DNA from: a bacterium
Lineage (GTDB): Bacteria > Sysuimicrobiota > Sysuimicrobiia > Sysuimicrobiales > Segetimicrobiaceae
DNA: 64,000 bases
NCBI GenBank assembly: GCA_035691305.1
Contig: DASSJF010000026.1
Coordinates: forward strand, 1-64,000
Direction of reading: 5' to 3'
The position numbers were made by a program, and so were the translations under genes. A model generated the notes under the pieces. It was not told where the DNA came from, ran no database searches, and saw nothing but the letters and a program-made list of their open reading frames with translations. Numbering within the stretch: position 1 is the stretch's first letter; every line of letters begins with the position of its first letter. This document shows, one piece after another, positions 964-26,127 of the stretch.

Positions 964-966
964 GCG

Positions 967-1422: not shown

Positions 1423-1432
1423 CGTCGGCCTC

Positions 1433-5051: not shown

Positions 5052-5054
5052 CTG

Positions 5055-7093: not shown

Positions 7094-7099
7094 GGCGGC

Positions 7100-8011: not shown

Positions 8012-8906
8012 TCACGCCGTATAACACGTCGACGAGCACGTTCGACAGCACGTACGCGGCGGTCGTCAGCAGCAGCACGGCCTGGACCACCGGGTAGTCC
8101 TTGGTGAGAATCGACGTGACCAGCAGCGCGCCGATGCCCTGGCGCGCGAAGACGGTTTCGGTAATCACGCCGCCGCCGACGAAGAGGCCCAGCAGCAGCC
8201 CCATCATGGTCACCACCGGGAAGAGCGCGTTCCGCAGGGCATGGCGCAGCACGACGGTCCGTTCGAGGAGACCCTTGGCGCGGGCCGTCCGGATGTAGTC
8301 CTCGCCGCGCACGTCGAGAATGCTGGAGCGGACCAACCGCGCCAAGTTGCCGATGGCGTACGAGCCGAAGACGATCGCCGGCAGGATGAGGACCGGCAGG
8401 CCGCTCCCGACGATGGGCACCCATCCGAGCCGTAGACCGAAAAAGTAGATCAGCAGCATCGCGGTCCAATACCCGGGCATGGAGATGCCGACCAGCGCGA
8501 CAAACATCGCGGCCGCGTCGACCGCTGTGTTCGGATACAACCCGGCCACCAGGCCGAGGAAAAGCCCTCCCCCGATCCCCACAACGAGGCCGGCGCCGGC
8601 GAGCTGCAGGCTGGCCGGCAACTGCTGCGCGATGACCTGGGAAACGGGCTGGCCGGTCGCAAACGACTGCCCGAAGTCGCCGTGGAGCGCGTGCACGACG
8701 AAATAGACGTACTGCGCCGGCAGCGGCCGGTTCAGCCCCAGTTTCGCCCGCAGGTTTGCCCTGACGGTGTCCGACGCCGGCCGGCCGGACAGCATCAGAT
8801 TGACCGGGTCCCCCGGGATCAAGTGGAGCACCAGAAACGCGCAGGTCGTGGCGACCACGAGGACGGGCACGGCCCACAGCAGTTTGCGCAGCATGTACCG
8901 CGACAT
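7986..8906 (-). CDS. Peptide/opine-type ABC transporter permease, DppB family
   Basis: Inner-membrane permease of 306 aa with the DppB N-terminus (MSRYMLRKLLW, then LHLIPGDP), about six transmembrane helices, the EAA loop (EDYIRTARAKGLLERTVVLR) and the family end (VLYGVIDPRVRFG). It lies 38 bp after the binding-protein gene and overlaps the DppC-type gene, the classic A-B-C order of a dipeptide, nickel or opine importer. The substrate class must be set by the binding protein and by the amidohydrolases of the operon. Confidence 0.93.
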   Translation of the reverse strand: MSRYMLRKLLWAVPVLVVATTCAFLVLHLIPGDPVNLMLSGRPASDTVRANLRAKLGLNRPLPAQYVYFVVHALHGDFGQSFATGQPVSQVIAQQLPASLQLAGAGLVVGIGGGLFLGLVAGLYPNTAVDAAAMFVALVGISMPGYWTAMLLIYFFGLRLGWVPIVGSGLPVLILPAIVFGSYAIGNLARLVRSSILDVRGEDYIRTARAKGLLERTVVLRHALRNALFPVVTMMGLLLGLFVGGGVITETVFARQGIGALLVTSILTKDYPVVQAVLLLTTAAYVLSNVLVDVLYGVIDPRVRFG

Positions 8907-8944
8907 GCGACCTCGTGACGCTCAGGCGCCGCCGAACGGCGCGC

Positions 8945-10603: not shown

Positions 10604-12027
10604 TTCCTCGACTCCAGTAGACCCAGTTCCGCGAGAGCCTTCGCGGCTCCGTCCAAAGTGGAGAGGTCCATCCCGGCGTAGTTGGGAGAAAACACCACGC
10701 CCTTGCCTCCCGCGCGGTACGTCGCCAGGACACTGCGGCGCACGATGTCGGGCGTACACCGGGCTTGATCCTCACGCGTGCGCGGCGCGTCGACACCGAT
10801 GCCCATATAGACGTCCACCTTCCCCTTGACGGCGCGCACCGTCGCCAGGCATTGCCCGTACACGTACGTGTCGGGGTCAAAGCCGGTCTGCACGACCTCG
10901 TCCCACGGCGCCTCATCGATGCCGAGAAACCGGTACATGATCGGTGTCATTTGCTGCGGCGTGACGTCCCGTAGAATGGAGCGGTGCCAGTCCGTCATCT
11001 CCTTCACGTACACGCCGCCGGCCTGGTGCTGGTAGGTGATCGGCTTGACCCAGTCGCTCCACCCGGTCATTTCCTCCCACGGCCACTGGGCCTTGCGCAG
11101 GGGGTTCAGGTGGTTGCGGTTCCACACGTTGAGGCCGAATTTCAACGAGCCCCTGCACCACTTCACGACGCCGTACAGTTCCCGGTCCATGTCCTTGTTC
11201 CGTTCGACCCAGAACCGCTCCCAGACCAACAGTTCCGGATGGTAGTACAGGACGCGCAGGAACTCCACGAAGGCGCCGTCGGACAGTTCGCCGCCTGACC
11301 GCGCGGTCTGAAAGACGTCGTAGGCCGTGCGGTAGGCGAGCCGCGCCGCCTCGGCGTCGACCCCCCGGGCCGCCGCCAGACGGCGGCAATGCTCGCAGAA
11401 GCAGTGCGGCGCGGCGCCGCCGATCAACGCGTCGAGCGGGCTGCGACGCTCGTTGCACCACATCACGCCGTCGATATCGTAGCTGCGGCAATAGTCTTCG
11501 ACAATTGAGTGCCACCAAGTGCGGTAATCCGGATGGTTGATGCACGGGGCCGCGCCGACGCGATTGAACGCGTCGACCTCGAGCGTCTGGGGGAGGTTCG
11601 GCACGGCGACGACGTTCGCCGCGCCGTGGCCTTCGTAGTTGAACAGCGGTTCCATGACCTCCGGGTACACCCGCATGCCCCGCCGCCGGGCTTCCGGAAT
11701 GACCGTCTCCAGCACGTCGACGCCGTTCAGCGCCTCATCCTGCGCGCGGAAGCCCGTGATGAACGTGTTGCGATAATACTGCGGATGGTCGGCGATGTAG
11801 GATCCGCCGCGAAGGGGCTGCGCGTCGCGGGCGCCGTGGTCGGGCCAGCCGTCCAGCTTCCACGAGATCCGGCGCCCGACTTTCAACCCGAGCCACGAGA
11901 TCGTGCCGATCAGCAGGACGTTGATGCCGAACCGTTCTTTCAACGTGTCGAGCAGCGGCCCGACGCCTTCGTCGACGAAGCTGACGGGGCTGATCTGGAT
12001 GCCGACGAATTTCTCGGACGCGGTCAT
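10600..12027 (-). CDS. TIM-barrel-like protein of unknown function, resembling hypothetical glycoside hydrolases
   Basis: A 475-aa cytoplasmic protein (no signal peptide) that I do not firmly recognise. Alternating beta-strand/helix segments such as INVLLIGTISW, RGMRVYPEVME and DGVMWCNER (186-194) look like a TIM barrel. The cysteine cluster CFCEHC (209-214) recalls the hypothetical glycosyl-hydrolase family GHL6. Candidate catalytic acids are E123 in YPEVMEP and E193 in CNER. It is encoded between an amidohydrolase and the ABC binding protein in the long operon, with a 7-bp and a 4-bp (ATGA) junction, so it probably processes the imported compound in the cytoplasm. A metal-binding role for the Cys cluster is possible. 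Confidence 0.6.
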   Translation of the reverse strand: MTASEKFVGIQISPVSFVDEGVGPLLDTLKERFGINVLLIGTISWLGLKVGRRISWKLDGWPDHGARDAQPLRGGSYIADHPQYYRNTFITGFRAQDEALNGVDVLETVIPEARRRGMRVYPEVMEPLFNYEGHGAANVVAVPNLPQTLEVDAFNRVGAAPCINHPDYRTWWHSIVEDYCRSYDIDGVMWCNERRSPLDALIGGAAPHCFCEHCRRLAAARGVDAEAARLAYRTAYDVFQTARSGGELSDGAFVEFLRVLYYHPELLVWERFWVERNKDMDRELYGVVKWCRGSLKFGLNVWNRNHLNPLRKAQWPWEEMTGWSDWVKPITYQHQAGGVYVKEMTDWHRSILRDVTPQQMTPIMYRFLGIDEAPWDEVVQTGFDPDTYVYGQCLATVRAVKGKVDVYMGIGVDAPRTREDQARCTPDIVRRSVLATYRAGGKGVVFSPNYAGMDLSTLDGAAKALAELGLLESRK

Positions 12028-12034
12028 GGGCCGC

Positions 12035-13255
12035 TCACCAATCGTACCAATCCCGGAGCTCTCCGTTGTCGACCAGATGGGCGCCGTCTACGAACACGTG
12101 GCGCACCGCGCCGAGGACGCGGACGTCGGTCAACGGATCGCCGTTCACCGTCACGAGGTCCGCGAGCTTCCCTTCCTCCACGGTGCCGAGCCGGTCGGCG
12201 TCACCGCGCAGCTCGGCGCTGTTGACGGTCAGCATCTGGATCACGTCGAGCGGTGAGTCAACGGCCTCGTACCGGAGCAGCGCCTCCATCTCGCCCATGA
12301 TCTCGTCGTGCGGGACGCACGGGCTCCCCGCATCCGTGCCGAAGGCGAATTTGACGCCCGCTTCGCGCATGCGCCGCAGAAACGCGCCCGGCGGAGCCTG
12401 CTCGGCCTGCTTTTTGCGCGCCGCGGCGACCTCCGCGGGCATCCCCCTCGCCGGGCCGCGCTCGGTCTGCAGGACCCGGGGTGAAAACGTCGGCACCACA
12501 AACATCCGGCGCTCCACAATCCGCGCGAGCACGTCGTCGTCCACCGGACCGCCGTGTTCGATTGAATCGAACCCGGCCGCGACGACGTTCGCGATGGCCT
12601 CGCGAATCGAGGCGTGGGCCGTAATGCGGCGTCCGAGCCGGTGCGCTTCGTCCGCCGCCGCGCGCAGTTCGTCGACCGAGTACTGCGGCGTCCGTTCGTT
12701 GGCGATGACCTTGATGTGGTCGGCGCCGAGCTTCACCTGTTCGCGAACGGCCGCCCGGATGCCGTCGATGCCGTCGGCTTCGCGGCCGCACCACCAGGTG
12801 TGACCGCCCGTGCACATGATGGCCTTGCCGGCGATGAAGAGCCGCGGCCCTTTGAGCAGCCCGCGCCGCAGCGCTTCTTTGGCGTCGACGGCGCTCACAC
12901 GCATACCGACGTCGCGGAGCGCCGTCAGCCCCACGCGGAGCGACTTGCGCAGATTTGCGGCGGCCTTGATTCCGTTGATGCCGTCGGAGTCGTTCAGCGA
13001 CTCGTCCCGCAGGATCCCCGTCGGGCCGCCGTCCCACCCCCTGCCGCTCCATCCCACGTGCACGTGGTTATTGGAGAATCCGGGCAGGATCGTCTGGCCC
13101 TCGACGTTGAGCGCCGCGGCCCCCGGGGACGCGCCCAATTCGCCGGCCGCCGCGATGCGCGCGATCCGGTTGCCGTCCACCAGCACGTCGGCGGGAACCC
13201 GCGCCCCCCGCCGGACGTCCAGCACATGTCCTCCCCTCAACACCACTCGCGCCAC
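12035..13255 (-). CDS. Amidohydrolase family protein (imidazolonepropionase/prolidase-like)
   Basis: Metal-dependent amidohydrolase of 406 aa. The complete ligand set is visible: H64 and H66 (NNHVHV), carboxylated-lysine candidate K182 (ADHIKVIA), H214 (ITAHAS), H234 (SIEHGG) and D308 (FGTDAGSP). This is the arrangement of the Xaa-Pro/Xaa-Arg dipeptidase-like subgroup of the superfamily, although other amide or lactam substrates are possible. The GTG start has an AGGGAGG ribosome-binding site about 8 nt upstream; the longer frame would run into the preceding Gfo/Idh gene. Second gene of the 13-gene operon. Confidence 0.88.
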   Translation of the reverse strand: MARVVLRGGHVLDVRRGARVPADVLVDGNRIARIAAAGELGASPGAAALNVEGQTILPGFSNNHVHVGWSGRGWDGGPTGILRDESLNDSDGINGIKAAANLRKSLRVGLTALRDVGMRVSAVDAKEALRRGLLKGPRLFIAGKAIMCTGGHTWWCGREADGIDGIRAAVREQVKLGADHIKVIANERTPQYSVDELRAAADEAHRLGRRITAHASIREAIANVVAAGFDSIEHGGPVDDDVLARIVERRMFVVPTFSPRVLQTERGPARGMPAEVAAARKKQAEQAPPGAFLRRMREAGVKFAFGTDAGSPCVPHDEIMGEMEALLRYEAVDSPLDVIQMLTVNSAELRGDADRLGTVEEGKLADLVTVNGDPLTDVRVLGAVRHVFVDGAHLVDNGELRDWYDW

Positions 13256-13269
13256 GCCGCTTCCTCCCT

Positions 13270-14331
13270 TCACGTGATGGGGCGCGCCGCCGGCACATCG
13301 TGGCGCGCGTAGAACTCTTCCATAACGACGGCCCGGCCGGTCCGGTGTGACTCTTCGCACGCCGCGATCGCGCCGAGGGTCCGGAGGTGATCCGCGCCCG
13401 ACGGATGAGGCCGGGCGACGCCCTCTTGCAGCTGCGCCGCCACGTGCGCGAGGAGCAGCCGCGCGTCGTCGACGAGCGGCTGCTGATACGGCAGCTCGAT
13501 CGGCGCCGTCCGTTCCGCGTCCCGGCCGCGGGCGATGTGCAGATCCGCGAACATCTCGCGCTGGACCAGCGCGCCGTTCCCGCAGTCCGTCCGCCACTCG
13601 AATGTGGTCATCTTTGTCTGCGCCGACCACGTGCCGATGTACGTGACGAAGATCCCGCCTGCGAACTCAAACACCGCGGACACCGTGGCGTCGTGCCGGT
13701 ACATGCTCCACGTGGGATTGTGGCACCGGCATGAGACCCGTTCGAGTTCGGCGTCGTAGACGAAGCGCATCGTGTCGAGGTGATGAATGGTCTGTTCGTA
13801 CAGCATAGGGTGAAGCATCGTCAGCGGATAGCGGTTCAAACCCGGCCGGTAGCCGTCACGATTCCGCCAGTAGACGTAGCGGGCGAACTCGGGGGCGCCG
13901 ATCTCCCCTCCGCGGAAAATCTCCCGCGCTCTGGCGACGCAGTGCTGGTAACGGAAATTCACCGCGACCGTCAGCGTCCGGCCGGCACCCTCGGCGGCCT
14001 CGACGATGCGGATCGCCTCGGCGATGTCAACGGCGAGCGGCTTTTCCGAGAGGAGATGGGCGCCGTGGTCGAAAATGGTACACGCGTCTTCGAATCGGTC
14101 CATCGGCGGCGTCGCGAGCACCACGAGGTCGGGGCGCAGGGCCCCGAGCGCGGCGGCGAGCGACGTAAACCAGCCGCCGGCCGCCGGCCCGGTCTCTTGC
14201 ATGCGAGCAAGCCGCTCGTCCGACCGGTCGACGTAGCCTACGACGTTGACGCGGGGCTCTTCGTCGAGGAGGCGCGCCCAGACGCGCCCGCGGGCCCCGA
14301 GGCCGACCAAAAGCGTGCGCAACGGGTCCAT
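13270..14331 (-). CDS. Gfo/Idh/MocA family oxidoreductase
   Basis: First gene of the long minus-strand operon, 353 aa. The Rossmann motif LLVGLGARGR (7-16) and EKP (96-98) identify the family; the C-terminal domain contains the H-rich stretch YEQTIHHLDTMRF in place of the usual H..D helix. It is more divergent than the paralogs at 4 and 17899. The chosen ATG has only a weak ribosome-binding site; longer in-frame starts would reach into the shared regulatory element at 14351. The promoter must lie in the 114-bp gap to the divergent binding-protein gene, so expression is probably controlled by whatever binds that element. Confidence 0.85.
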   Translation of the reverse strand: MDPLRTLLVGLGARGRVWARLLDEEPRVNVVGYVDRSDERLARMQETGPAAGGWFTSLAAALGALRPDLVVLATPPMDRFEDACTIFDHGAHLLSEKPLAVDIAEAIRIVEAAEGAGRTLTVAVNFRYQHCVARAREIFRGGEIGAPEFARYVYWRNRDGYRPGLNRYPLTMLHPMLYEQTIHHLDTMRFVYDAELERVSCRCHNPTWSMYRHDATVSAVFEFAGGIFVTYIGTWSAQTKMTTFEWRTDCGNGALVQREMFADLHIARGRDAERTAPIELPYQQPLVDDARLLLAHVAAQLQEGVARPHPSGADHLRTLGAIAACEESHRTGRAVVMEEFYARHDVPAARPIT

Positions 14332-14350: not shown

Positions 14351-14372
14351 CCCGCAGGAAATCCTGCCAAAT
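14351..14372. promoter_or_regulatory. Inverted-repeat operator, copy 1 (RpiR-operator candidate)
   Basis: Contains a perfect inverted repeat GCAGGA-AA-TCCTGC (14354-14367), flanked by CCC and CAAAT. The whole 22-bp stretch is identical to 22902-22923, and a weaker match (GGCCA, then TTTATG, then GGTGCG) follows both copies. It sits between two divergent genes, 19 bp above the Gfo/Idh start on the minus strand and 74 bp above the binding-protein start on the plus strand. A regulator binding here could control the 13-gene operon and the divergent transporter operon at once. The RpiR protein at 24222 is the only regulator nearby and the natural candidate. Confidence 0.65.
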
Positions 14373-14445
14373 CATCCGAAGGTGGCCATTTATGGTGCGG
14401 CGCCGACCGTCCGACGATGCGCCGCCATCCCGAGAGGAGCGACAC

Positions 14446-16053
14446 ATGGGCCTGCATGGCATGACCCGCCGAAGCCTACTCCTTGCCACGTGCTCGGCGC
14501 TCGCCGGTGCGTCGGCCGCCGGACGCTCTTGGGCGGCCGCGGCGCCCGGCGGCGCGCTGACGATCGCGATGCCCGCCGATGCCGAGCCGGCGTCGCTCGA
14601 CGGACAAGTCGATCCCTATGTCAGTGCGTGGTTGCTCAACTCCTTTGTCACCGACCCGCTGGTCATGCTGACGTCATCCGGCCGGTACATCCCGATGCTG
14701 GCCACGGGGTGGACGACCGCCGCCGATGGCCGCGTCTGGACACTCTCGCTGCGCCAAGGTCTCGTCTTTCAGGACGGCACGCCGTTCGACGCCGAGGCCG
14801 TGAAGTTCAACATCGACCGCGTCATGAACCCGGAGACGCACTCGGCGCTGATGGCGAGCTATCTCGGCGTGAAAAATTACCTCAAGACCGAGGTGGTCGA
14901 CCGCCTGACGGTTCGTGTCATTTATGGTTCCCCGGTTCCCGCGCTGCTGTACGGACTCAGCATCTTTCCGCTGTGGTCACCCACCGCGGTCAGGCAGTTT
15001 GGGAGCGGCTTCCAGCAGCACCTCGTTGGTGAAGGCGCCTTTCGGCTGGCCGGCTGGGCGCGCGGCGACAACGTCCGCTTCGTGAGGAACCCCGCCTATC
15101 ACGGGGCCCGCCCGTGGCAGGAGCACGAGGGGGCGCCGTTTCTCGAAAGCATTACGGTACGATTTGTCGGCGATCAAGGCGTGCTCGGACAGATCCTCAA
15201 GACGGGCGAGGCCAATCTCGTCGCGGGTCTGCCGGCGCAGGCGGTCGGCACATATGCCAACCAGCCCGGCTACGAGGTCGTGGCGGGGTACCAGTCCGGC
15301 AACGGCATGATGTTCTCGATGAATACGGCGCGCCCTGCGCTGAACGACGTGAGGGTGAGGCGCGCCCTGCGCTACGCCTACGATCAAGACCGGATGAACC
15401 AGACGCTGTACGGCGGCAGCTACGTGACCGTCAGGGGCCCGCTGACGAAGTACACGCTGTACTATTGGAAGGGCGCCGAGAACGCGTACCGGCTCGATCC
15501 GGGCCGCGCCCGCTCGCTCCTCGATGAAGCCGGCTGGAAAGACAATCCGCGCACCGGCGTTCGGGAAAAAGACGGCCGGCCCTTGACGCTGACGATCGTG
15601 ATGCTGCACCACAAGGAGATCGGCGAATACCTTGCGGCCCAGCTGCGCGCCGTTGGCGTGGACCTGCGGGTCGAAGTCGTTCCCGGCCCGGTACAGCTGC
15701 AGCGCGCGTTCAGCGGCGACTTTGACATCATCTACGAACGGCTGCGGAGCTATGAGCCCGACATCCTCGCCGACGAATTCTACTCCAAGAACTACCGTCC
15801 GGGAGGGTGGGCGTGGACGCGCTATCAGAACGCCGCGCTCGACAAGGTCCTGCTCGAGACACAGTCCACCACGGATCCGGCGCGGAGGCGGGCGCTCTTC
15901 ACCGAAGCGCAGAAGACGGTGACGGAGCAGGCCCTCTACCTCCCGACACTCGACGATCCACAGTATTACGCGATGACGCGGAAGGTCCGCGGCTTTCGGC
16001 TCGGCGCGATCGGCTCATGGTACTTCGTCAACGACGTGTCGATCAGCACGTAG
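14446..16053 (+). CDS. ABC transporter substrate-binding protein, family 5 (SBP1)
   Basis: Exported solute-binding protein of 535 aa with a Tat-like signal (MTRRSLLLAT, then an alanine-rich stretch to about residue 36). Family-5 features are all present: PASLDGQVDP, GLVFQDGTPFDAEAVKFNIDR, VRRALRYAYD and DPGRARSLLDEAGW. GAGGAG lies 7 nt before the ATG, which fixes the start; the open frame extending upstream is not used. It is a close paralog of the protein at 21229: both open the mature chain with P(A)D.EPA.LD.QVDPY and end in W(Y/F)FVNDV. It starts a plus-strand operon with DppB, DppC and Gfo/Idh genes. Confidence 0.93.
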   Translation: MGLHGMTRRSLLLATCSALAGASAAGRSWAAAAPGGALTIAMPADAEPASLDGQVDPYVSAWLLNSFVTDPLVMLTSSGRYIPMLATGWTTAADGRVWTLSLRQGLVFQDGTPFDAEAVKFNIDRVMNPETHSALMASYLGVKNYLKTEVVDRLTVRVIYGSPVPALLYGLSIFPLWSPTAVRQFGSGFQQHLVGEGAFRLAGWARGDNVRFVRNPAYHGARPWQEHEGAPFLESITVRFVGDQGVLGQILKTGEANLVAGLPAQAVGTYANQPGYEVVAGYQSGNGMMFSMNTARPALNDVRVRRALRYAYDQDRMNQTLYGGSYVTVRGPLTKYTLYYWKGAENAYRLDPGRARSLLDEAGWKDNPRTGVREKDGRPLTLTIVMLHHKEIGEYLAAQLRAVGVDLRVEVVPGPVQLQRAFSGDFDIIYERLRSYEPDILADEFYSKNYRPGGWAWTRYQNAALDKVLLETQSTTDPARRRALFTEAQKTVTEQALYLPTLDDPQYYAMTRKVRGFRLGAIGSWYFVNDVSIST

Positions 16054-16080
16054 CCCGCCGGCGCGCCGGGACGGTCTGAG

Positions 16081-17013
16081 ATGGCGGGGTACATCGGACA
16101 ACGGGTGGCCGTCCTGATCCCGGTCGTCGGGCTGGTCTTCACCGTCGTATTCGCCATCATGCACGCGCTGCCCGGAGACCCGGTGCAGCTGATGCTTGCC
16201 GGCGCCGAGGCCGGCGTCACCACGCCGGAGCGCATCGCGCAGCTGCGGACCAGCATGGGCCTCGACCAACCGCTGTATGTGCAGTACGGCCGTTTCATCG
16301 CCCACGCGCTGCGCGGCGACCTGGGCGAATCGATACGGTTTCAGTCGCCGGTGAATGAATTGATCACCGGGGCCTCGCTGCAGACCTTCCAGCTGAGCCT
16401 CGCCGGAATGGCGGCGGCGCTCCTGATCGGCATCCCGCTCGGCATCCTCGCCGGCATCCACGAAAACACGTGGTTGGACAACGCGGCGATGTTCGTCTCG
16501 CTGCTCGGCGTCTCCATGCCGCTGTTCTGGCTGGCGCTGCTGTTGATTCTTCTGGTGGCCATCCATCTGCAGTGGCTCCCGGCGATCAGCGGCCAACAGC
16601 TTCGGGGGCTCGTCCTTCCCGCCTTCACGCTCGGGTTCGTCGCCGCCGGTCTCATCAGCCGGCTGATGCGCGCCAGCCTGATCGAGGCGCTCCGGCACGA
16701 TTACGTCCGCACCGCGCTGGCGAAAGGGCTTCGCCGCCGGGTGGTCACCTCGAAACACGCGCTCCGCAACGCGCTGATTCCGGTGATCACCGTCGCCGGG
16801 CTTCAGTTCGGCGGCATGCTGAGCGGCGCGGTGATCACCGAAACCATATTCAGCCGGCCGGGCCTCGGCTCGCTCATCGTCAAGGCGATCCTGTGGCACG
16901 ATTACCCGCTCATCCAAGGCGCGGTGTTGCTCACCTCGGTGGCGTACGTCTTGGTCAATCTGGGCATCGACCTGTTGTACGCGTTGATCGATCCTCGGAT
17001 CCGCTATGCCTGA
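16081..17013 (+). CDS. Peptide/opine-type ABC transporter permease, DppB family
   Basis: Inner-membrane permease of 310 aa: N-terminal helix, PGDPVQLML at 31-39, about six transmembrane helices, EAA loop (HDYVRTALAKGLRRRVV) and the end LIDPRIRYA. It follows SBP1 by 27 bp and overlaps the DppC-type gene by 8 bp. It is the only permease pair in the 14-26 kb region and so probably serves both SBP1 and the paralog SBP2, which has no permeases of its own. Confidence 0.93.
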   Translation: MAGYIGQRVAVLIPVVGLVFTVVFAIMHALPGDPVQLMLAGAEAGVTTPERIAQLRTSMGLDQPLYVQYGRFIAHALRGDLGESIRFQSPVNELITGASLQTFQLSLAGMAAALLIGIPLGILAGIHENTWLDNAAMFVSLLGVSMPLFWLALLLILLVAIHLQWLPAISGQQLRGLVLPAFTLGFVAAGLISRLMRASLIEALRHDYVRTALAKGLRRRVVTSKHALRNALIPVITVAGLQFGGMLSGAVITETIFSRPGLGSLIVKAILWHDYPLIQGAVLLTSVAYVLVNLGIDLLYALIDPRIRYA

Positions 17014-17902
17014 GGTCGCCGCAAGCCGCCTGCCGAAGACCGTACAGCCGTCGCGACGGGCGGGCCGCGGGTCTTCGATCACATGGAAGATCTTTGTGCG
17101 GAACAAAGGAGCGCTCGCGGGCGCCGTCATTCTGGCCGGATGGATCGCCGTCGCGGTCCTGGCGCCCCACGTCGTCCCGTTCGACCCGCTCGGACTCGTC
17201 GCACCGAGCCGGCAGCCGCCCTCGCTCGCTCATCCAATGGGAACGGATCTGCTCGGCCGCGATATCTTCAGCCGCCTGATCTTCGGCGCGCGGCTCTCGC
17301 TTGCCATCGGGCTGATCAGCGTCGTCATCGGCATGACCGCCGGGTCGCTCATGGGCCTCGTGGCCGGCTACTATGGCCGCCGGCTCGACGCGACGCTGAT
17401 GCGCATTGTGGATGCGATGCTGGCGTTTCCGGGCCTGCTGCTCGCCCTCGTCGTGATCGCCTCCCTCGGGCCGGGACTGGTCAACGTCATGCTGGCGGTC
17501 GGCATTTCGTCCGTGCCGCTCTACGCACGGCTCGTCCGGGGGTCCTGCCTCACGGTGCGTGAGGTCGAATATGTGCAGGCGGCGCGGGCGCTCGGCGGTC
17601 GGGACCGCCGCATCATGTTCCGGCACATCCTACCCAACGTGCTCGGTCCGCTCGTCGTCCTGTCTACCCTGCAGGTCGGGAGTGCGATCCTCGTCGGGTC
17701 GGCCCTCAGCTACCTCGGCATGGGCGCGCAGCCCCCCACGCCTGAATGGGGGCTCATGACCTCCGACGGGCAACCGTACCTGGCCTCGGCATGGTGGATC
17801 TCCACGTTCCCGGGATTTGCGATCTTTTCCGCGGCGATGGCCGTGAACTTGCTGGGGGACGGCCTCCGCGCGGCGCTCGATCCCCGGTCGACCTACCGAT
17901 GA
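17006..17902 (+). CDS. Peptide/opine-type ABC transporter permease, DppC family
   Basis: Inner-membrane permease of 298 aa with a basic N-terminus, one anchor helix, HPMGTDLLGRDIFSR, a five-helix core with the EAA loop (VEYVQAARALGGRDRRI) and the end LLGDGLRAALDPR. The ATG lies inside the DppB stop region (8-bp overlap). The stop overlaps the next ATG as ATGA, showing translational coupling to the Gfo/Idh gene. Partner of the DppB-type protein; no ATPase is encoded nearby. Confidence 0.93.
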   Translation: MPEVAASRLPKTVQPSRRAGRGSSITWKIFVRNKGALAGAVILAGWIAVAVLAPHVVPFDPLGLVAPSRQPPSLAHPMGTDLLGRDIFSRLIFGARLSLAIGLISVVIGMTAGSLMGLVAGYYGRRLDATLMRIVDAMLAFPGLLLALVVIASLGPGLVNVMLAVGISSVPLYARLVRGSCLTVREVEYVQAARALGGRDRRIMFRHILPNVLGPLVVLSTLQVGSAILVGSALSYLGMGAQPPTPEWGLMTSDGQPYLASAWWISTFPGFAIFSAAMAVNLLGDGLRAALDPRSTYR

Positions 17903-18891
17903 GCCGCGCCGGCCGCCCGGGATCGGTACGCGTTGGGATTATCGGGGCGGGCATCGCGGGAGAGCGCCACGCCGCCGCGTTTGGCGCCCATCCGGACGCG
18001 ATCGTCGCCGCCGTCGTGGACGTCGATCCCGAGCGGGGACGGCCGCTCGCGGCGCGATTCGGCGCCGCCTGGTTCGCCGACTATCGGGACGCGTTCGCGC
18101 ACGGCATCGATGCGGCAGTGGTCTGCCTCCCGCACGCGCTGCATGCCGGCTGCGCACTGGAGGCGGCGCGGGCGAAGATTCATCTGCTGCTCGAGAAACC
18201 GATCGCCAACACCATTGAGGACGCCCACCGCATCGTGGACGCGGCCGGCGCGGCGGACACCCGGTTGATGATCGGTTACGTCCACCGGTTTCGCCCTGAA
18301 GTGCAGGCGGCCCGCGAGCTGATCCGGGCGGGACGTCTGGGGCGGCCGGCCACAGCGCTCGATCGGTTCATCAGCGGCGGCATGCGCGACACGCCCGGGT
18401 GGGTATGGGACCGGTCGCTGGCCGGCGGCGGCGTCGTGATGTACGGCGGCGTGCACGCGATCGACCGCCTGCGCTGGCTGCTGGACGACGAAATCACCGA
18501 AGTCTATGCGCGATCCTCGACGTACAGTAACGCCGCGGACGTCGAGGACGGGCTGTGCGCGGTCCTGACGTTCGCGTCCGGCGCGACCGCGGTCCTGTAC
18601 GAAAACGCGCCCGGGTATGGGCGGCTTGGACCGTGGACGACCGAGGTGTTCGGCAGCGAAGGCGCGCTCATCATCACGACCGGGGCGAGCGTGGAGTGCC
18701 GTACCGCCCGGGGTGCCGAGCGGCAGACGTACAGCGAGGATCGGCGGTTTGAACGTCAGGCCGAGGAGTTCCTCGGCGCCATCCGCGAGCGCCGGCGGCC
18801 GTCCGTGGACGGTTACGACGGGATCCGCGGCCTTGAAGTGGCGCTGGCCCTGTACCGGTCGGCCCGGTCGGGCAGGCCGGCGCCTGTCTAG
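17899..18891 (+). CDS. Gfo/Idh/MocA family oxidoreductase, paralog of the protein at 4-963
   Basis: NAD(P)-dependent oxidoreductase of 330 aa. GIIGAGIAGERH is the Rossmann motif, EKP follows near residue 97, and HRFRPEVQAA plus GGGVVMYGGVHAIDR form the catalytic half. The same blocks occur in the protein at 4-963, which indicates recent shared ancestry. The ATG overlaps the permease stop as ATGA; frames opening further upstream are inside the permease gene. As the last gene of the SBP1 transporter operon it probably oxidises the imported compound or a product of it. Confidence 0.9.
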   Translation: MSRAGRPGSVRVGIIGAGIAGERHAAAFGAHPDAIVAAVVDVDPERGRPLAARFGAAWFADYRDAFAHGIDAAVVCLPHALHAGCALEAARAKIHLLLEKPIANTIEDAHRIVDAAGAADTRLMIGYVHRFRPEVQAARELIRAGRLGRPATALDRFISGGMRDTPGWVWDRSLAGGGVVMYGGVHAIDRLRWLLDDEITEVYARSSTYSNAADVEDGLCAVLTFASGATAVLYENAPGYGRLGPWTTEVFGSEGALIITTGASVECRTARGAERQTYSEDRRFERQAEEFLGAIRERRRPSVDGYDGIRGLEVALALYRSARSGRPAPV

Positions 18892-18915
18892 CCGGTCACA
18901 GGCGCGAACGGCGGC

Positions 18916-19956
18916 TCAGCGCGGCGCCGTCAAAAACGCCGACAGCAGGTCGACACAGGCCTCCAGGTCCGTCTCATCCACCGTTTCATATGGGCTGTGC
19001 GTGTACCGACACGGGAAGGCGACCATCGCCGTGGGGATCCCTTCCTGCAGCCATTCCCGGCCATCGCTCGAAAAGTTTTGGAAGACCGCGTGCTGCAGCG
19101 AAATACCGGCGGTCGAGGCGCAGCGGGCCAGCCCCGCGGTGAGACCGGCACTGTAGGCGACAGCCATGTCTTTGTGCACTACGACCGGTCCCCGGCCGAG
19201 CCCGACGGGCATTTGACGTTCGTCGACGAGCGGCACGTCGCCGGCCAGGCCGACTTCCAGGACGAGACCGAGGTCGAAACCGCGAATGGCGGACCGTGCG
19301 CCGATCAGCCCGATTTCCTCCATGACCGTGGACCCGAACCACACGTCGTACTGCAGGCGGCCGCGCTCGACCCGGCCGGCCAGCTCCGTCATCACGGCGA
19401 GCGCGGCGCGGTCGTCCATGGCCTTGCCGACGATGTTCCGTCCATTTCTTCGGGTCGGGACCACGTTCACCACCGGCAGGCCCGGGTGCACACCCATCGC
19501 CTCGACGCCTGCGCGGCTTCGCACGCCGAGGTCAACGTAGAAATCCATCCAGTCGAGGCCGTGCCGCTCGTAGTGCGCGCGCTGCTGCCGGGTCAGCACG
19601 TGCCCGGTCGCGCTCACGAACGTGCCCTCCACGATGCCGGCCGATGTCACGATGGCGGCGGGCAGGCCGAGCGGCACCGGTTCGGGCGGACGCTGCTCGC
19701 CGAGGCCGCGCCCCGCGGTCAACCAAAGAAACCCGGCGGCATCGATGCTCTTGACGCGAAAACTGATCTCGTCGGCGTGCGCGCCAATGAGGATCTTCGG
19801 GCCGTGTCCGCCCAAGCGCGCGAGCACGTTGCCGATGGGTGTGGTGTCGACCTCCATACCGGCGTTACGCCACCGCTGCGCCAACCACTCCTGCACCGGC
19901 GACTCGCCGCCGGTGGGTCCCGTGAGCTCGGTCAGCGTCTTGACCAGGGTGAACAT
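18916..19956 (-). CDS. M42 family metallo-aminopeptidase
   Basis: Cytoplasmic cocatalytic-metal aminopeptidase/glucanase-type protein of 346 aa. Metal ligands can be followed in order: H60 and D62 in GAHADE, D181/D182 in GKAMDDRAAL, the catalytic pair E213-E214 in MEEIGL, E234 in LEVG (the usual residue is Asp) and H320 in RYTHSPYE. The length matches the family. The start at the ATG of MFTLVK is chosen because the M42 fold begins there; a GGGAGG lies about 15 nt upstream, which is long. It is the last gene of a minus-strand operon with SBP2 and the DegT aminotransferase, and would release amino acids from imported peptides. Confidence 0.88.
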   Translation of the reverse strand: MFTLVKTLTELTGPTGGESPVQEWLAQRWRNAGMEVDTTPIGNVLARLGGHGPKILIGAHADEISFRVKSIDAAGFLWLTAGRGLGEQRPPEPVPLGLPAAIVTSAGIVEGTFVSATGHVLTRQQRAHYERHGLDWMDFYVDLGVRSRAGVEAMGVHPGLPVVNVVPTRRNGRNIVGKAMDDRAALAVMTELAGRVERGRLQYDVWFGSTVMEEIGLIGARSAIRGFDLGLVLEVGLAGDVPLVDERQMPVGLGRGPVVVHKDMAVAYSAGLTAGLARCASTAGISLQHAVFQNFSSDGREWLQEGIPTAMVAFPCRYTHSPYETVDETDLEACVDLLSAFLTAPR

Positions 19957-20012
19957 GGCGGCGGACTCGTCACCTCCCGCATTCGCGCCGGCGCCGTCCG
20001 GGCCGGGCGCCG

Positions 20013-21170
20013 CTACGCGGCGGCCGGCACGCACTCGCGTACGGCGGCGGCGACTTCGGCGAGCTGCTCGTCGCTCATCGTTGGGAAAATCGGCAGACAA
20101 ACCAGACGGTCCGCGATCGATTCGGCGATCGGGAAAGCGCCGGCGCCAAAGCCCAGGTGCCGGTACACCGGCTGCAGATGCAGAAGCGGCGTGTAATACG
20201 CGTGCGTCGCGATGCCGCGTGCGGCGAGGTGCCGCCGCACGTGGTCCTTGTCCTGAACCAATATCGGAAACGTTCGATAGACGTGCGTGACGCCCGGCTC
20301 CTCGTGCGGGAGCACCGCGGCCAGCCCGTCGAGAAGCTCGCGGTACCGCTCGGCAATACGCCGCCGGCGCACAATGCAATCATCGAGCGAGGGCAGCTTG
20401 GCCGTCAGGACCGCCGCGTGCAGACTGTCCAATCGTTCATTGAAGCCCTCGGCGATGAGCCGCCACAGGCGGACCCCCGCGACCAACCCGTCCTGGTCGT
20501 CCATGCTCAGGTCGTGCCCGTAGTTGCGGAGCACTTTGACCCGCGCGGCGATATCGTCGTCGCCCGTGGTCACGATGCCCGCGTCGCCCGTGGCGCCGAG
20601 GATTTTCGTCGGCGCCAGGCTGAAGCAGCCGGCGTCTCCGATGGTACCGACCTTTCGCCCCCGGTATGTCGCGCCGACCGCGAGCGCCGCGTCTTCGATC
20701 ACACGGACTCCCTCGCTGCGGGCGATGTCCAGAATGGGATCCATATCGGCCGGATGACCGAACAGATGGACCGGCAGAATCACCTTGGTTCGGCGCGTGA
20801 TCTTTTCACGCAGGCGGCCCGGGTCCATGTTGAACGTCCTGGGATGCACGTCGACCCAGACGATCGAAGCGCCGCAGTGGCTGATCGCCATCGTAGTCGG
20901 AATATCGGTGTTGGGGACCGTGATGACTTCATCGCCCGGCCCCGCGCGGCACGCCAGCAGCGCCAACTGCACGGCCGCGGTCCCGGACCCCACGCCCACG
21001 GCGTGCCGCGCGCCGCAGTAGCGGGCGAAGTGCTCCTCGAACGCGCGCACCTCGTGGCCCATCGTCAGGGTGCCGCTCTCGAGCACGCGACGGATGGCCG
21101 CGTCGATCGCGGACTGCATCGACAGATAATCGGCCCGCAGATCGTACATCGGCACGCGCATGTGAGTCAC
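20013..21170 (-). CDS. DegT/DnrJ/EryC1/StrS family PLP-dependent aminotransferase
   Basis: Sugar-type aminotransferase of 385 aa. The PLP lysine is K189 in SLAPTKILG, with D160 in EDAALAVGA, the GSGTAAVQLAL cofactor-binding segment near 61-71 and the family HLFGHPADMD block (135-144). Such enzymes normally transfer an amino group to keto-sugars attached to nucleotides. Here it sits between a transporter binding protein and an aminopeptidase and no nucleotide-sugar biosynthesis genes are near, so a degradative or modifying role on an amino sugar is possible but unproven. Confidence 0.9.
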   Translation of the reverse strand: MTHMRVPMYDLRADYLSMQSAIDAAIRRVLESGTLTMGHEVRAFEEHFARYCGARHAVGVGSGTAAVQLALLACRAGPGDEVITVPNTDIPTTMAISHCGASIVWVDVHPRTFNMDPGRLREKITRRTKVILPVHLFGHPADMDPILDIARSEGVRVIEDAALAVGATYRGRKVGTIGDAGCFSLAPTKILGATGDAGIVTTGDDDIAARVKVLRNYGHDLSMDDQDGLVAGVRLWRLIAEGFNERLDSLHAAVLTAKLPSLDDCIVRRRRIAERYRELLDGLAAVLPHEEPGVTHVYRTFPILVQDKDHVRRHLAARGIATHAYYTPLLHLQPVYRHLGFGAGAFPIAESIADRLVCLPIFPTMSDEQLAEVAAAVRECVPAAA

Positions 21171-21228
21171 CGAACGCTACCGGAACCGCGGACCACCTTG
21201 AGGACGCGGGGCCGGTACGCGTCCGGGG

Positions 21229-22836
21229 TCACTTCTCGAGATAGACGTCGTTGACGAAGAACCAGTTGCCGATGGCGCCCAGTTTGAATCCTTGGACGGT
21301 CTTCTGCATGGCGTAATACACCGGGTCGTCCACGGTCGGCAGCGCCAGCGCGAAATCCGTTATCATGCGTTGGGCCTGGGTCCACAGCCGCTGCCGGTCC
21401 GTTTGGGACGAGGCGCCTTGCGTCTTCAGCAGCACCGCGTCGAGCGCGTCGTTGTGAAACCGCGACCACGCCCATCCGCCCGGCTTGTCGTTCTTCGAAT
21501 ACCAGATGGCGAACAAGCTCCCATCGGGTTCGAAGGTGCGCTGCCGCTCGTAGATGAAGTCGAAATCGCCGCTTTGTGCCCGCTGCAGCTGCACCGGTCC
21601 CGGCACCACGGCCACCTTCAGGTCGACCCCGATCTGCCGGAACTGCGCCGAGAGGTACTCCCCGATCTCTTTGTGATGCAGCATGACGATGGTGAAGCTG
21701 AGCGGTTTGCCGCCCTGCTCGCGGATGCCCGTCTGCGGATTGAGCTTCCACCCCGCCTCGTCCAGGAGCTGGCGGGCCTTCGCCGGATCATAGGAATACG
21801 CGGTCTCCGCGCCCTTCCAGTAGAAACGGCTCGACGGCGTCAACGGGCCCTTCGCCGTGACGTAATCACCGCCGTAGAGCGTCTCGTTCACCTTCACGGG
21901 ATCGTACGCGAACCGAAGCGCCTTGCGCACGCGGATGTCGCTCAGCCCGGGCCGGCTCGTGTTCATGACGAACTGCATGCCCGTGCCGGGTTGATATCCC
22001 AGGACGACCCGATAGTTTGGGTTGCCCCGGTACTCCTTGAGACTCTGGGACGGCACCTTGACGACGAGATTGACTTCCCCGGACTTCAGGACCTGTCCGA
22101 GCACCCCGGGGTCTCCGACGAACCGGACGTTGATGCCGTCGAGGTACGCCGCCCCGGCGTGCGATTGCACCGACGGAGAGCCGGCATAGCCCGCGTCGCG
22201 CGAGAACCTCACGTGATCGCCGCGGGCCCATTCGGCCAATTTGAAGGGGCCCGCCCCGGTAAGATGCTGGGGGAAGCTTGCGCCGTATTGTTTGACGGCC
22301 GCGGGCGACCACATCGGCGCCACACTGAGGCCCCACAGCGCAATCGGAACCGGCCCCGAATATGTGATCTTCACGGTCGAATCGTCGACCGCCTCAACCT
22401 TCTGGAAGTTGCCGGCGCCGAGAAAGTCGGCCAGTTCCGCCGAGTGCGTGTTGGGATCCATGATCCGCTCGATATTGAATTTCACCGCCGCGGCGTTGAA
22501 CGGCGTGCCGTCCTGGAACTTGACCCCCTTCCGGACGGTAAGAGTCCAGACTTTGCCGTCTGGAGACACCGTCCAGGCCGTGGCGAGCGCCGCGACGTAC
22601 CGTCCGTCCGAGTTGAGGCGGATCAGAGGATCGGCGACGAAGGAGTTCAAGAGTTTGGTGCTGTCGTAGGGGTCAACCTGAGAATCGAGGTTGGCCGGCT
22701 CTTCGTCGGCCGGCCAGGCGATGGCCAACGTCCCGCCTTGTACCGCGGCGGGACGGGCGGGCAGTGCCATCACGGCCACGAGGCTCACGAACACCGCCAG
22801 CCCAGTCGCGCTGACAATCCACCTGCGGTCGTTCAC
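21229..22836 (-). CDS. ABC transporter substrate-binding protein, family 5 (SBP2)
   Basis: Exported solute-binding protein of 535 aa with a Sec-type signal (hydrophobic stretch about residues 10-30). Family-5 hallmarks are GVKFQDGTPFNAAAVKFNIERI, GAGPFKLAEWARGD, IRVRKALRFAYDP and DPAKARQLLDEAGW. It is a close paralog of SBP1 (14446), including the closing WFFVNDV. The GTG start has GGGAGGTGA 8-9 nt upstream. No permease follows it: the next genes are the DegT aminotransferase and the M42 peptidase, so it probably docks onto the DppB/C pair at 16081-17902. The shared 22-bp element lies about 66 bp above its start. Confidence 0.93.
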   Translation of the reverse strand: MNDRRWIVSATGLAVFVSLVAVMALPARPAAVQGGTLAIAWPADEEPANLDSQVDPYDSTKLLNSFVADPLIRLNSDGRYVAALATAWTVSPDGKVWTLTVRKGVKFQDGTPFNAAAVKFNIERIMDPNTHSAELADFLGAGNFQKVEAVDDSTVKITYSGPVPIALWGLSVAPMWSPAAVKQYGASFPQHLTGAGPFKLAEWARGDHVRFSRDAGYAGSPSVQSHAGAAYLDGINVRFVGDPGVLGQVLKSGEVNLVVKVPSQSLKEYRGNPNYRVVLGYQPGTGMQFVMNTSRPGLSDIRVRKALRFAYDPVKVNETLYGGDYVTAKGPLTPSSRFYWKGAETAYSYDPAKARQLLDEAGWKLNPQTGIREQGGKPLSFTIVMLHHKEIGEYLSAQFRQIGVDLKVAVVPGPVQLQRAQSGDFDFIYERQRTFEPDGSLFAIWYSKNDKPGGWAWSRFHNDALDAVLLKTQGASSQTDRQRLWTQAQRMITDFALALPTVDDPVYYAMQKTVQGFKLGAIGNWFFVNDVYLEK

Positions 22837-22901
22837 GAACCGTCACCTCCCGAAGCAGCACCGCCGGTCAGACCGGACGGGTGACGCCTTATACCTGACG
22901 G

Positions 22902-22923
22902 CCCGCAGGAAATCCTGCCAAAT
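22902..22923. promoter_or_regulatory. Inverted-repeat operator, copy 2 (RpiR-operator candidate)
   Basis: Exact second copy of the 22-bp element at 14351-14372, with GCAGGA (22905-22910), AA, TCCTGC (22913-22918). It lies between SBP2 (minus strand) and the aminotransferase-RpiR-epimerase operon (plus strand). A TATAAG-like -10 candidate for SBP2 lies at 22893-22888 on the minus strand, which would put the repeat across its -35 region, as expected for a repressor site. The regulator gene at 24222 lies in the operon it would control. Confidence 0.65.
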
Positions 22924-22993
22924 GGGCCAATTTATGAAAGGTGCGTTGCCGACACTAGAGGAGCTTCGGCCGGCGGAGGTACAAGCGGTTCCC

Positions 22994-24187
22994 ATGGCAG
23001 AGACGACGGTGCCGACACTGCTCGAGCGTATGATTTCGCGCCGCGCCCGCGATGTCGGGCAGGGTTTCCCCCGCCAAACCTCGGTCCCGACGACAGGGAT
23101 GATCACGCTGTCAAGCGGCACGCCCGACTTCGCCACGCCTCCGCACATCATCGACGCAGCCAAGCAGGCGCTCGACGGCCGGCATACCACGTACACCGAG
23201 TGGGCCGGCATCCCAGAATTGCGCCGAGCCATCGCGCGGAAGCTTCAACAGGATAACGGCATTACCGCCGACCCGGACTCGGAAATCCTCGTCACGACCG
23301 GGACGCAAGAAGCGCTGCAGGTCATCTGTCAGACGTTTCTTGATCCCGGCGACGAAATCCTGATCCACGCTCCCTACTACGACGAATACCGGCGCGATGC
23401 GCTGCTGGCCGGCGCGCGGCTCGTGGCCGTGCCGACGAAGCGGGAGCACGACTTCGCCGTCGACGCCGAGGTCCTGGCGGAACGAATTACCGACCGCACG
23501 AAGGCGATCATCGTGGTTTCTCCGAGCAATCCCGCGGGCGCCGTGCAACCGCGCGCCGCGCTCGAGCGCGTTGCCGCGCTGGCGCAAGAACGGGATCTCC
23601 TGATCATCGCCGACGAGCTGTACGAAAAATTCGTCTACGATGGACTGCGGCAGCACAGCATCGCATCGTTCCCGGACATGTTTTCTCGGACGATCACCAT
23701 CAATGGGTTCTCGAAATGCTATTCGATGACCGGCTTTCGCATCGGGTACATTGCCGCGCCCGCCGCGCTCCTCCGGGCGATGCTGCCGATCAAACACGGC
23801 ATGACAATCTGCGCACCGTCGGTGTCGCAGTGGGCGGCGATGGCGGCGCTGACCGGCCCCCACGAGTGGTTCGGCGGCGTGCTGAAAGAGTATGACGCGC
23901 GACGCCGGCTGTGGATGGAGGCCCTCGACGCGGGCGGTCTGACCTATGGTCGTCCGCAGGGTGCCTACTATGTCTACTTCAACGTCGCATCCACGGGCCT
24001 GACGGGGCGTGAGTTTTCGGAGCGCCTCCGCCGCGACTACCATATAATCCTGGGCTCCGGCGGGGCAATCGGCGGCGACTGGGCTTCGTACCTCCGCGGC
24101 TCGCTGGCCGTGCCGTCGGACCCGCTGCGGGAGGGCCTGGACCGGCTCACCCAGGCCGTCGAGCGATACCGCCGAGACGCGAAGTAG
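22994..24187 (+). CDS. Class I/II PLP-dependent aminotransferase
   Basis: Aspartate-aminotransferase-fold enzyme of 397 aa from this start. PLP contacts are N179 (SPSNPAG), D207 (IADELY), K241 (NGFSKCYSM) and R249 (TGFRIGY), all in family positions. The ATG of MAETT follows a GGAGGT by 13 nt; earlier in-frame ATGs at 22934 and 22924 are possible but would begin on or beside the operator. First gene of a plus-strand operon with RpiR and epimerase genes. Family members act on amino acids and 2-oxo acids; the exact amino donor is not evident. Confidence 0.87.
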   Translation: MAETTVPTLLERMISRRARDVGQGFPRQTSVPTTGMITLSSGTPDFATPPHIIDAAKQALDGRHTTYTEWAGIPELRRAIARKLQQDNGITADPDSEILVTTGTQEALQVICQTFLDPGDEILIHAPYYDEYRRDALLAGARLVAVPTKREHDFAVDAEVLAERITDRTKAIIVVSPSNPAGAVQPRAALERVAALAQERDLLIIADELYEKFVYDGLRQHSIASFPDMFSRTITINGFSKCYSMTGFRIGYIAAPAALLRAMLPIKHGMTICAPSVSQWAAMAALTGPHEWFGGVLKEYDARRRLWMEALDAGGLTYGRPQGAYYVYFNVASTGLTGREFSERLRRDYHIILGSGGAIGGDWASYLRGSLAVPSDPLREGLDRLTQAVERYRRDAK

Positions 24188-24221: not shown

Positions 24222-25109
24222 GTGTCCGAGACCGATCACCTGGAAGTCTTCGAGCGCATCCGATCCAAATACCCGGACCTCAGCCCGAGCTTCAAGAAGA
24301 TCGCGGACTACCTCCTGGACCGGTATCGCGATGCCGCCTTCTTGCCGGCGTCCGGTGTCGCGGCAAGCGCGGAGGTCAGTGAATCGGTCGTCGTCCGGTT
24401 TGCGGGTGCGCTGGGATATGACGGCTATCCGGAAATGCTGCGCGCAATTCAGCGCGTTGTGAAGCGCGAACTGGCGCCGTTCCGCCGCCTGCCCGGAGAG
24501 AACGTCGCCGAAGACTCAGTCCCCTCGGACGATGTCCTCGGGCAGATCATCGCCACGGATATCGAGAACCTCCGCTTCACCGCCGCGGACCCGGTCACGG
24601 TCGCCTCGTTCCCGCGGGCGGTTGACATGCTGACCGAGGCGCATGAGGTCTTCGCCCTCGGCATCCGCGGACTCGGGAACCTCGCCGGCATGCTCGGATT
24701 TCTGCTCACGATCTCAGGGATCCGGACGCACATCCTGGCCCACGGGGACGCGGAGTTGTTCGAACACCTCCGTTTCATCGAAAAGAGCGATGTTCTGGTC
24801 GCCTTTTCGTTCCAACGCTACACCAGGCGAACCGTCGACGCGCTCGATCTCGCGAAACGCAGAGGCGCGCGAACGATTGTGATCACGGAATCGCTCAGGT
24901 CGCCTGCCGCGCAGGTCGCCGACCTTTCCCTCATCTGTGCGCTCAAGAGCCGATCCTTCTTCAACTCGTACACCGCGGCGGTCACCCTCGTGAATGCGCT
25001 GACGACCGGTGTGGTGAACCGGCGCCTCCGCGCCAGCCGGCGGGCGCTCGAAACCCTCGATGAACTGCTGCCGGACGAGGATTTCTTCGGCCGGGACAAC
25101 GGATTCTAG
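24222..25109 (+). CDS. RpiR/MurR family transcriptional regulator with SIS domain
   Basis: Transcription factor of 295 aa. The N-terminal RpiR helix-turn-helix (about residues 8-85, with SPSFKKIADYLL and SESVVVRFAGALGYDGY) is followed by a SIS phosphosugar-binding domain (about 130-270, including FALGIRGLGNLAG and DVLVAFSFQRYTRRT). Members sense sugar phosphates or amino-sugar phosphates and bind inverted repeats. It starts with GTG in the aminotransferase operon, downstream of one copy of the 22-bp operator candidate. It is the only regulator in the first 43 kb, so it is the likely controller of both divergent promoter regions. Confidence 0.88.
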   Translation: MSETDHLEVFERIRSKYPDLSPSFKKIADYLLDRYRDAAFLPASGVAASAEVSESVVVRFAGALGYDGYPEMLRAIQRVVKRELAPFRRLPGENVAEDSVPSDDVLGQIIATDIENLRFTAADPVTVASFPRAVDMLTEAHEVFALGIRGLGNLAGMLGFLLTISGIRTHILAHGDAELFEHLRFIEKSDVLVAFSFQRYTRRTVDALDLAKRRGARTIVITESLRSPAAQVADLSLICALKSRSFFNSYTAAVTLVNALTTGVVNRRLRASRRALETLDELLPDEDFFGRDNGF

Positions 25110-25143: not shown

Positions 25144-26127
25144 ATGGCGACCGTGTTGGTCACCGGCGGAACCGGCGCGGTCGGGGCCCATCTGGTCCGC
25201 AGATTGGCCCTCGAGGGACATGATGTCATCTGCCTCTCCCGGCATGCCGCGGCGGATGACACGCGGCGGGATGCCTTTTTGGGCGCGGCGGGACGGCGGG
25301 TCGTGTTCGTGCCGGGAGACGTGGCCCGCCTCGAGGACCTGGAAGCCGTCTGGTCGCAGCATCACCCGACGCACGTCGTTCATGCGGCGGCGATCACCCC
25401 GACGCCGACGATGGAACGCTCGATGGCGGCCGCGGTGGTGTCGGCCAACGTATTGGGCACGGCCAACGTCCTGGAGACGGCGGGCCGCCGGGGCGCGACG
25501 CGCGTGATCTATGTCAGTTCCGCGGGTGTGTACGGCGAAACCGGTGATGCCGCGCCGGTCCCCGAGGCCGCGCCGCTGCGCGGGAACAGCCTTTACGCGA
25601 TTACCAAGAAGACCGGCGAGCAGCTCTGTGAGTTCTACGAACGCCTCTCCGGGGTTCCCGTCGCCGCGGTGCGCGTCGGATGGGTGTACGGGGCGATGGA
25701 GCGACCGATGCCGGGGTCGCGCGAGCAGATGTCGCTGATCTATGAGTGTGTCCGCCTGGCGCTAAGCGGTGAGGAGCTGCGGCTCCACGAGCTCGATCCC
25801 GTCCGGGACTGGATCAACGCGGATGATCTGGCCCGCGCCATCTCGGCGCTGCTGTTCGCCGGCGCGCTCCCGCATCGTCTCTACAACTGCGCCGGACCGA
25901 GAGGCTACAGCCATTCGGAGCTGCTGGACACGCTGGCCCGTGTCCTCCCGTTGCGGTATCGCAAGTCGGAGCGTGCTGACAGTGCAAACGTGGCTCCCTC
26001 GCTGACCCGCCGGCGTCGCGGTCCACTAAACGTCGAGCGGCTGCTGACGGATACGGGCTATCGCCCGCGCATCGATTTGGAAACCGGACTGCGCCGGTAC
26101 GTCGAATGGGTCAAAACCCAGGGTTGA
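25144..26127 (+). CDS. NAD-dependent epimerase/dehydratase (extended SDR)
   Basis: Extended SDR of 327 aa with GGTGAVG (8-14), serine in VSSAGVYG and the catalytic Y151 and K155 (YAITKK). The order of motifs and the length match the epimerase at 5055, suggesting paralogy across the two regulated operons. The ATG is preceded by a GGAG. It follows the RpiR gene by 34 bp and ends the operon. UDP-glucose epimerase-like by family, but context favours catabolic dehydrogenation or epimerisation of an imported sugar-like substrate. Confidence 0.87.
   Translation: MATVLVTGGTGAVGAHLVRRLALEGHDVICLSRHAAADDTRRDAFLGAAGRRVVFVPGDVARLEDLEAVWSQHHPTHVVHAAAITPTPTMERSMAAAVVSANVLGTANVLETAGRRGATRVIYVSSAGVYGETGDAAPVPEAAPLRGNSLYAITKKTGEQLCEFYERLSGVPVAAVRVGWVYGAMERPMPGSREQMSLIYECVRLALSGEELRLHELDPVRDWINADDLARAISALLFAGALPHRLYNCAGPRGYSHSELLDTLARVLPLRYRKSERADSANVAPSLTRRRRGPLNVERLLTDTGYRPRIDLETGLRRYVEWVKTQG

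Follow-up and report, generated by a model that had tools for sequence, protein, structure and literature searches.

Why does the same palindrome stand at two divergent promoter regions beside the gene of an RpiR-family regulator, and could it be the operator of that protein? We have analyzed the source genome (G000; 3,578,218 bases in 87 contigs, 96% complete), in which the window, that is, the whole stretch of 64,000 bases studied here, corresponds to G000:C26:1-64000. The 22-mer CCCGCAGGAAATCCTGCCAAAT is found in two identical copies, at 14351-14372 (site A) and 22902-22923 (site B), and both contain a perfect 6-2-6 inverted repeat GCAGGA-AA-TCCTGC (14354-14367 and 22905-22918). Beyond the 22-mer a weaker similarity between A and B runs on (CCAAAT...CCA(A)TTTATG). 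Site A is located between the Gfo/Idh operon (minus strand, ATG at 14331) and the SBP1 operon (plus strand, ATG at 14446), and site B between the SBP2 operon (minus strand, start at 22836) and the aminotransferase-RpiR-epimerase operon (plus strand, ATG at 22994). The original prediction had described the 22-bp identity, the 6-bp inverted repeat with its 2-bp spacer, the weaker similarity past it and the position of both copies between divergent operons, and the sequence and the gene map bear it out on all of them. The sites and the genes at both sides are as follows:

4..13225, minus strand: the other 12 genes of the 13-gene run (amidohydrolase, GHL10-like, SBP_bac_5, two permeases, Ldh_2, epimerase, AspA-like, amidohydrolase, M20 peptidase, glyoxalase-like, Gfo/Idh)
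13270..14331, minus strand: Gfo/Idh oxidoreductase, first gene of the 13-gene run, with operator A 22 bp upstream of its ATG
14354..14367, no strand: candidate operator A, core GCAGGA-AA-TCCTGC, between the gfo/idh and SBP1 operons; orthologous place kept in G005, G007 and G009
14446..16053, plus strand: SBP1, SBP_bac_5 solute-binding protein
16081..17013, plus strand: Opp-type permease, SBP1 operon
17006..17902, plus strand: Opp-type permease, SBP1 operon
17899..18891, plus strand: Gfo/Idh oxidoreductase, SBP1 operon
18916..20034, minus strand: M42 peptidase, SBP2 operon
20013..21161, minus strand: DegT-family aminotransferase, SBP2 operon
21229..22836, minus strand: SBP2, SBP_bac_5 solute-binding protein
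22905..22918, no strand: candidate operator B, core GCAGGA-AA-TCCTGC, between the SBP2 and aminotransferase-RpiR operons; kept in G001, G007 and G009, degenerate in G005
22994..24187, plus strand: aminotransferase class I/II, first gene of the RpiR operon
24222..25109, plus strand: RpiR-family regulator (HTH_6 and SIS), proposed binder of operators A and B on the evidence of Pfam, orthologues and tree
25144..26127, plus strand: NAD-dependent epimerase/dehydratase, third gene of the RpiR operon

The four flanking operons, whose co-transcription is assumed, hold 13+4+3+3 = 23 genes. The prediction of about 22 genes in one regulon thus had the right gene set, with a count of 23, and that they would form one regulon is a reading of the operator positions. 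The contig starts at window base 1, so that the 13-gene run may extend further. The proposed regulon (4-26127) codes for three SBP_bac_5 proteins and two pairs of Opp-type permeases and has no ABC ATPase gene; the ATPases must therefore be shared from elsewhere. Further along the window, between 32415 and 45660, there is a cluster that looks like ureide/oxamate nitrogen catabolism (hydantoinase A/B, allophanate-hydrolase C-terminal-like, isochorismatase, an amino-acid kinase similar to carbamate kinase, AllG oxamate carbamoyltransferase subunit, CoA-ligase-like, a GntR regulator and an ammonium transporter).

Shuffled versions of the window never gave a match to the 22-mer, even allowing up to 3 mismatches, and by our own arithmetic the probability of sharing a 22-mer by chance between intergenic stretches of 114 bp and 157 bp is about 1e-9. 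Over the whole genome, the 18-bp core GCAGGAAATCCTGCCAAA matches perfectly at two places, with no further match at 1-2 mismatches and a single one at 3. The latter, on contig C39, was rejected as being at chance level (we estimate about two chance matches at up to 3 mismatches). The palindrome GCAGGANNTCCTGC is found at four places, sites A and B and two inside ORFs, and the latter two (C4 and C53) were discarded as operators for this reason, as were the one-mismatch palindromes within ORFs on C73, C75 and C79. These counts bear on a different origin of the two copies, as a repeat dispersed in the genome or as a remnant of a duplication or a mobile element. The identity does reach 8 bp past the palindrome in the source genome and not in its relatives. 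However, the genome-wide scan that the original prediction had called for, with many unrelated copies as the mark of a repeat, gave exactly two copies in 3.58 Mb, both in the cluster, which already refutes a dispersed intergenic repeat. Besides, across genera only the core is kept, at fixed orthologous places and with fixed spacing to the flanking elements. We regard such an origin as very improbable.

An inverted repeat between genes could also act in the RNA, as a terminator or attenuator hairpin. The 2-nt spacer is too short for a proper hairpin loop, nothing resembling a terminator was found and both sites are located between divergent genes, upstream of both; a role in RNA is thus hardly credible.

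We compared 43 genomes of the order. Orthologues of the RpiR protein are present in G001, G005, G007 and G009 (84, 72, 70 and 70% identity) and a 42% identical homologue in G013. Allowing no mismatch, the core GCAGGAWWTCCTGC was found 18 times, in 11 of these genomes. Ten of the places lie between genes, each linked to an RpiR gene of the group (sites A and B in G000, G007 and G009, and one site each in G001, G005, G013 and G020), and the other eight are within ORFs with the related cluster not nearby. All six genomes with an RpiR orthologue of the clade carry the site beside it, and a seventh, G020, with a distant homologue, has two. Generic ABC components aside, RpiR is the only gene common to all the linked places.

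The arrangement of the cluster varies among these genomes. In G005 it is collinear, with site A exact and site B degenerate (GCAGGAAACCTTGC). A relocation is seen in G007 and G009, where the block of genes from SBP3 through the last Gfo/Idh now follows the RpiR operon, on the other side of the RpiR gene and co-directional with the operon; the Gfo/Idh-amidohydrolase-GHL10 genes remain at site A, and both sites persist. A GntR-like gene is found beside the relocated block in both genomes (L178 and L180), and gene order there is fluid while the operators persist. G001 has only the RpiR half with site B and is devoid of an orthologue of the site-A Gfo/Idh. Orthologues of RpiR and of that Gfo/Idh are both missing from G002, which belongs to the same genus, and so is any intergenic site. 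More distantly, in G013 (family f3) the core is located about 120 bp before the RpiR homologue, divergent from hydantoinase-like genes, and in G020 (family f6) two tandem copies (0 and 1 mismatch), 39 bp apart, precede a 33% identical homologue. For the upstream regions of these two genomes, none of 200 shuffles was as good as the real sites.

The core GCAGGAWWTCCTGC has been kept although flanking DNA and gene order changed. In the intergenic alignments the palindrome is the longest invariant block, and the flanks of the 22-mer (CCC at the left and CAAAT at the right) are not common to A and B in the relatives, indicating that the additional identity of the 22-mer is peculiar to this genome. 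The conserved candidate operator is, in these alignments, the 14-16-bp core and not the 22-mer. The orientation of its central dinucleotide is constant at 9 of 9 sites in the five close genomes, with AA read toward SBP1 or the aminotransferase. The comparison of upstream regions that the original prediction had suggested thus gave the core at both orthologous places beside RpiR orthologues, and the co-occurrence of site and gene across genomes gives good support to the link between them, at which the original prediction had only guessed.

The same comparison helps to judge whether the palindromes would be bound by another transcription factor with its gene elsewhere, such as the GntR/FCD protein (43452-44192) or the SorC-like one (59827-60867), the RpiR gene being a mere neighbor. 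The window does contain these further regulators, and a GntR-like gene adjoins the RpiR gene in G007 and G009. Yet the clusters of G013 and G020 mostly differ, and still the site is directly before RpiR, the sole specific gene that they share; genomes without the RpiR clade have no linked intergenic sites. Another factor seems to us unlikely.

The motif extends to some relatives of the regulator and not to others. No convincing site was found in the 400 bp upstream of more distant RpiR homologues in G026, G023, G013b, G017 and G032, and the cases of G026, G023 and G013b (SESTVVRFA) indicate that the motif does not accompany every relative. Weak versions are found before more distant RpiR genes (G285, G149 and genus g9), for example TGAAGGAACTCTTGCAA at -59 to -84, and are only suggestive as sites. 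Weak motifs of the type TG[CA]AGGAANTCTTGCA likewise precede more distant RpiR genes, at -59 to -84, at L209, L210, L154-L157, L171 and L173; two of the genomes concerned do not belong to the order. Upstream of the other RpiR gene of the source genome (C73, L008) there is a one-mismatch match with a different center. The form TGCAGGAWWTCCTGCA, searched in 386 genomes, had 8 matches outside the order, and in no case was a relative of this RpiR encoded within 1.5 kb. One-mismatch matches in genomes outside the order were set aside as chance-like. A scan of 84,980 genomes with the extended motif GCAGGANNTCCTGCCAAA gave scattered, unrelated organisms among the matches listed, and we have discarded it as a general marker.

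Around the palindromes there are short elements at fixed distances:

14391..14396, plus strand: -10-like TATGGT, exactly 23 bp from operator A toward SBP1; position conserved, function putative
22888..22893, minus strand: -10-like TATAAG, exactly 11 bp from operator B toward SBP2; function putative
22946..22950, plus strand: TTGCC block, exactly 28-32 bp past operator B toward the aminotransferase

A -10-like hexamer is found 23 bp from site A toward SBP1 in four of four genomes (TATGGT, TACACT, TATACT and TATACT), and the element at 11 bp from site B toward SBP2 in four of five (TATAAG, TATACG, TATTAC and TATTAC), being absent in G005. TTGCC at 28-32 bp does not vary among five B sites and recurs in the G013 site (toward RpiR; L207, about 897-901), and may be a half-site or a promoter element. 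No consensus sigma-70 promoter was found at either divergent region, and neither was a TTGACA-like -35 box. If the -10-like hexamers are real, transcription would start about 7 bp downstream of 14396 (plus strand) and of 22888 (minus strand), and the palindrome would be centered near -42 relative to SBP1 and near -30 relative to SBP2. With this geometry the regulator could activate one operon and repress the other, or else repress both.

There is prior evidence of a similar layout in Streptococcus pneumoniae, in which SpNanR, an RpiR activator, binds ManNAc-6-P, and a half palindrome follows its operator about 23 bp downstream (PMC12713135). The RpiR studied here could likewise be mainly an activator with a second contact at TTGCC, as proposed for the pneumococcal protein, a sub-hypothesis that is compatible with RpiR as the binder and that we consider possible but rather unlikely. 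A center near -42 is the class II activator position, with no -35 consensus, and the TTGCC at fixed spacing downstream of B recalls the SpNanR half-site (PMC12713135). On the other hand, with the -10-like element 11 bp off toward SBP2 the palindrome covers the -35 region, as is usual in repression; most members of the RpiR family are repressors, and TTGCC resembles half of the palindrome only loosely.

The Pfam domains assign the protein to the RpiR family, with HTH_6 at the N-terminus (PF01418, E 1.2e-12, 48.1 bits against a cut-off of 28.3) and SIS at the C-terminus (PF01380, E 2.8e-16, 59.9 bits against 25). As in other members of the family, a palindromic site is found upstream of the presumptive target operons and linked to the regulator across genomes. 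It is one of two HTH_6 genes of the source genome, the other being the one on C73. In a tree of 33 homologues the proteins of G000, G001, G005, G007, G009 and G013 group together at 100/99 support, and the recognition helix is near-identical in the six (SESVV[VI]RFA). The G020 homologue is in the neighboring branch, together with homologues that carry weak versions of the motif. The protein did not reach the cut-off of any of the curated NCBIfam equivalog models scored, which included HexR, MurR and AlsR and not RccR (best 77.8 bits against 378; HexR 63.2 against 296, AlsR 64.7 against 400 and MurR 34.8 against 408).

The phosphosugar-binding motif SxSGxT is not found in its SIS domain, which has SFQRYT instead. 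This motif is typical of RpiR regulators but does not define them, and other HTH_6 and SIS proteins are also devoid of it. VvNanR (4ivn) has SSSGST at this position, and SHSGST is read in other RpiR proteins of the order. The RY form recurs in 3sho, filed as RpiR family, which by sequence is the closest of the solved structures. Besides, no sugar kinase appears among the Pfam matches of the 23 genes. A SIS domain without SxSGxT and a candidate regulon without a sugar kinase suggest that the effector may be unphosphorylated. The Gfo/Idh, DegT, amidohydrolase, AspA-like and M20 and M42 peptidase genes would fit an amino-sugar, a peptide or an N-acyl compound.

Among the operators compared, the closest are those of RccR and HexR, RpiR-family regulators of Pseudomonas, with TGTAGT-N3-ACTACA (PMC5489143), which the TGCAGGAWWTCCTGCA form of the core resembles. 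The similarities include an HTH_6 and SIS regulator, a 15-bp TG..CA palindrome with an A/T center, its location before target operons and the regulator gene, and a small regulon conserved across species. However, the core here is TGCAGGA-WW-TCCTGCA, the SIS motif is SFxRYT and not SxSGxT, and the candidate regulon comprises oligopeptide-type ABC uptake, amidohydrolases and dehydrogenases; the effector of RccR is KDPG (PMC5489143). SpNanR shares the family and one near-palindrome per promoter with a conserved downstream element at fixed distance, but the operator TCTGAAAGTACTTTTAGA is unrelated, and SpNanR is an activator for which binding of ManNAc-6-P was demonstrated, while the pair described here is predicted from sequence. 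IolR of Caulobacter, with GGAA-N6-TTCC (PMC2597717), is also an RpiR regulator with a palindrome conserved across genera upstream of a catabolic module, but half-site and spacing differ and the inositol pathway is that of IolR. A literature search for the operator sequence found nothing usable.

The palindromes are very probably operators of the RpiR protein encoded at 24222-25109. The genomes directly provide the sites, which are conserved, occur together with the regulator and keep a fixed distance from promoter-like elements; from this we infer binding, direction of control and effector. An RpiR dimer would bind GCAGGAWWTCCTGC at each divergent promoter region and control both flanking operons, its own included, so that about 23 genes would be under joint control for the uptake and breakdown of some compound. 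As to direction, we lean toward repression relieved by a pathway intermediate, with activation or mixed action somewhat less probable. A more elaborate version seems doubtful, namely an RpiR branch without the phosphosugar motif that senses an unphosphorylated intermediate, contacts the palindrome and the fixed TTGCC, and activates one operon while repressing its divergent partner from the same site.

This would be a new predicted RpiR regulator/operator pair within a known kind of system, an ordinary regulatory circuit in an uncultured lineage. It provides a testable pair and, in an order that has been little studied, a defined 23-gene candidate regulon. A single signal would link three solute-binding proteins with about a dozen enzymes, which helps to narrow down the substrate, and the pair offers a test of how RpiR proteins without the phosphosugar motif may sense their ligands.
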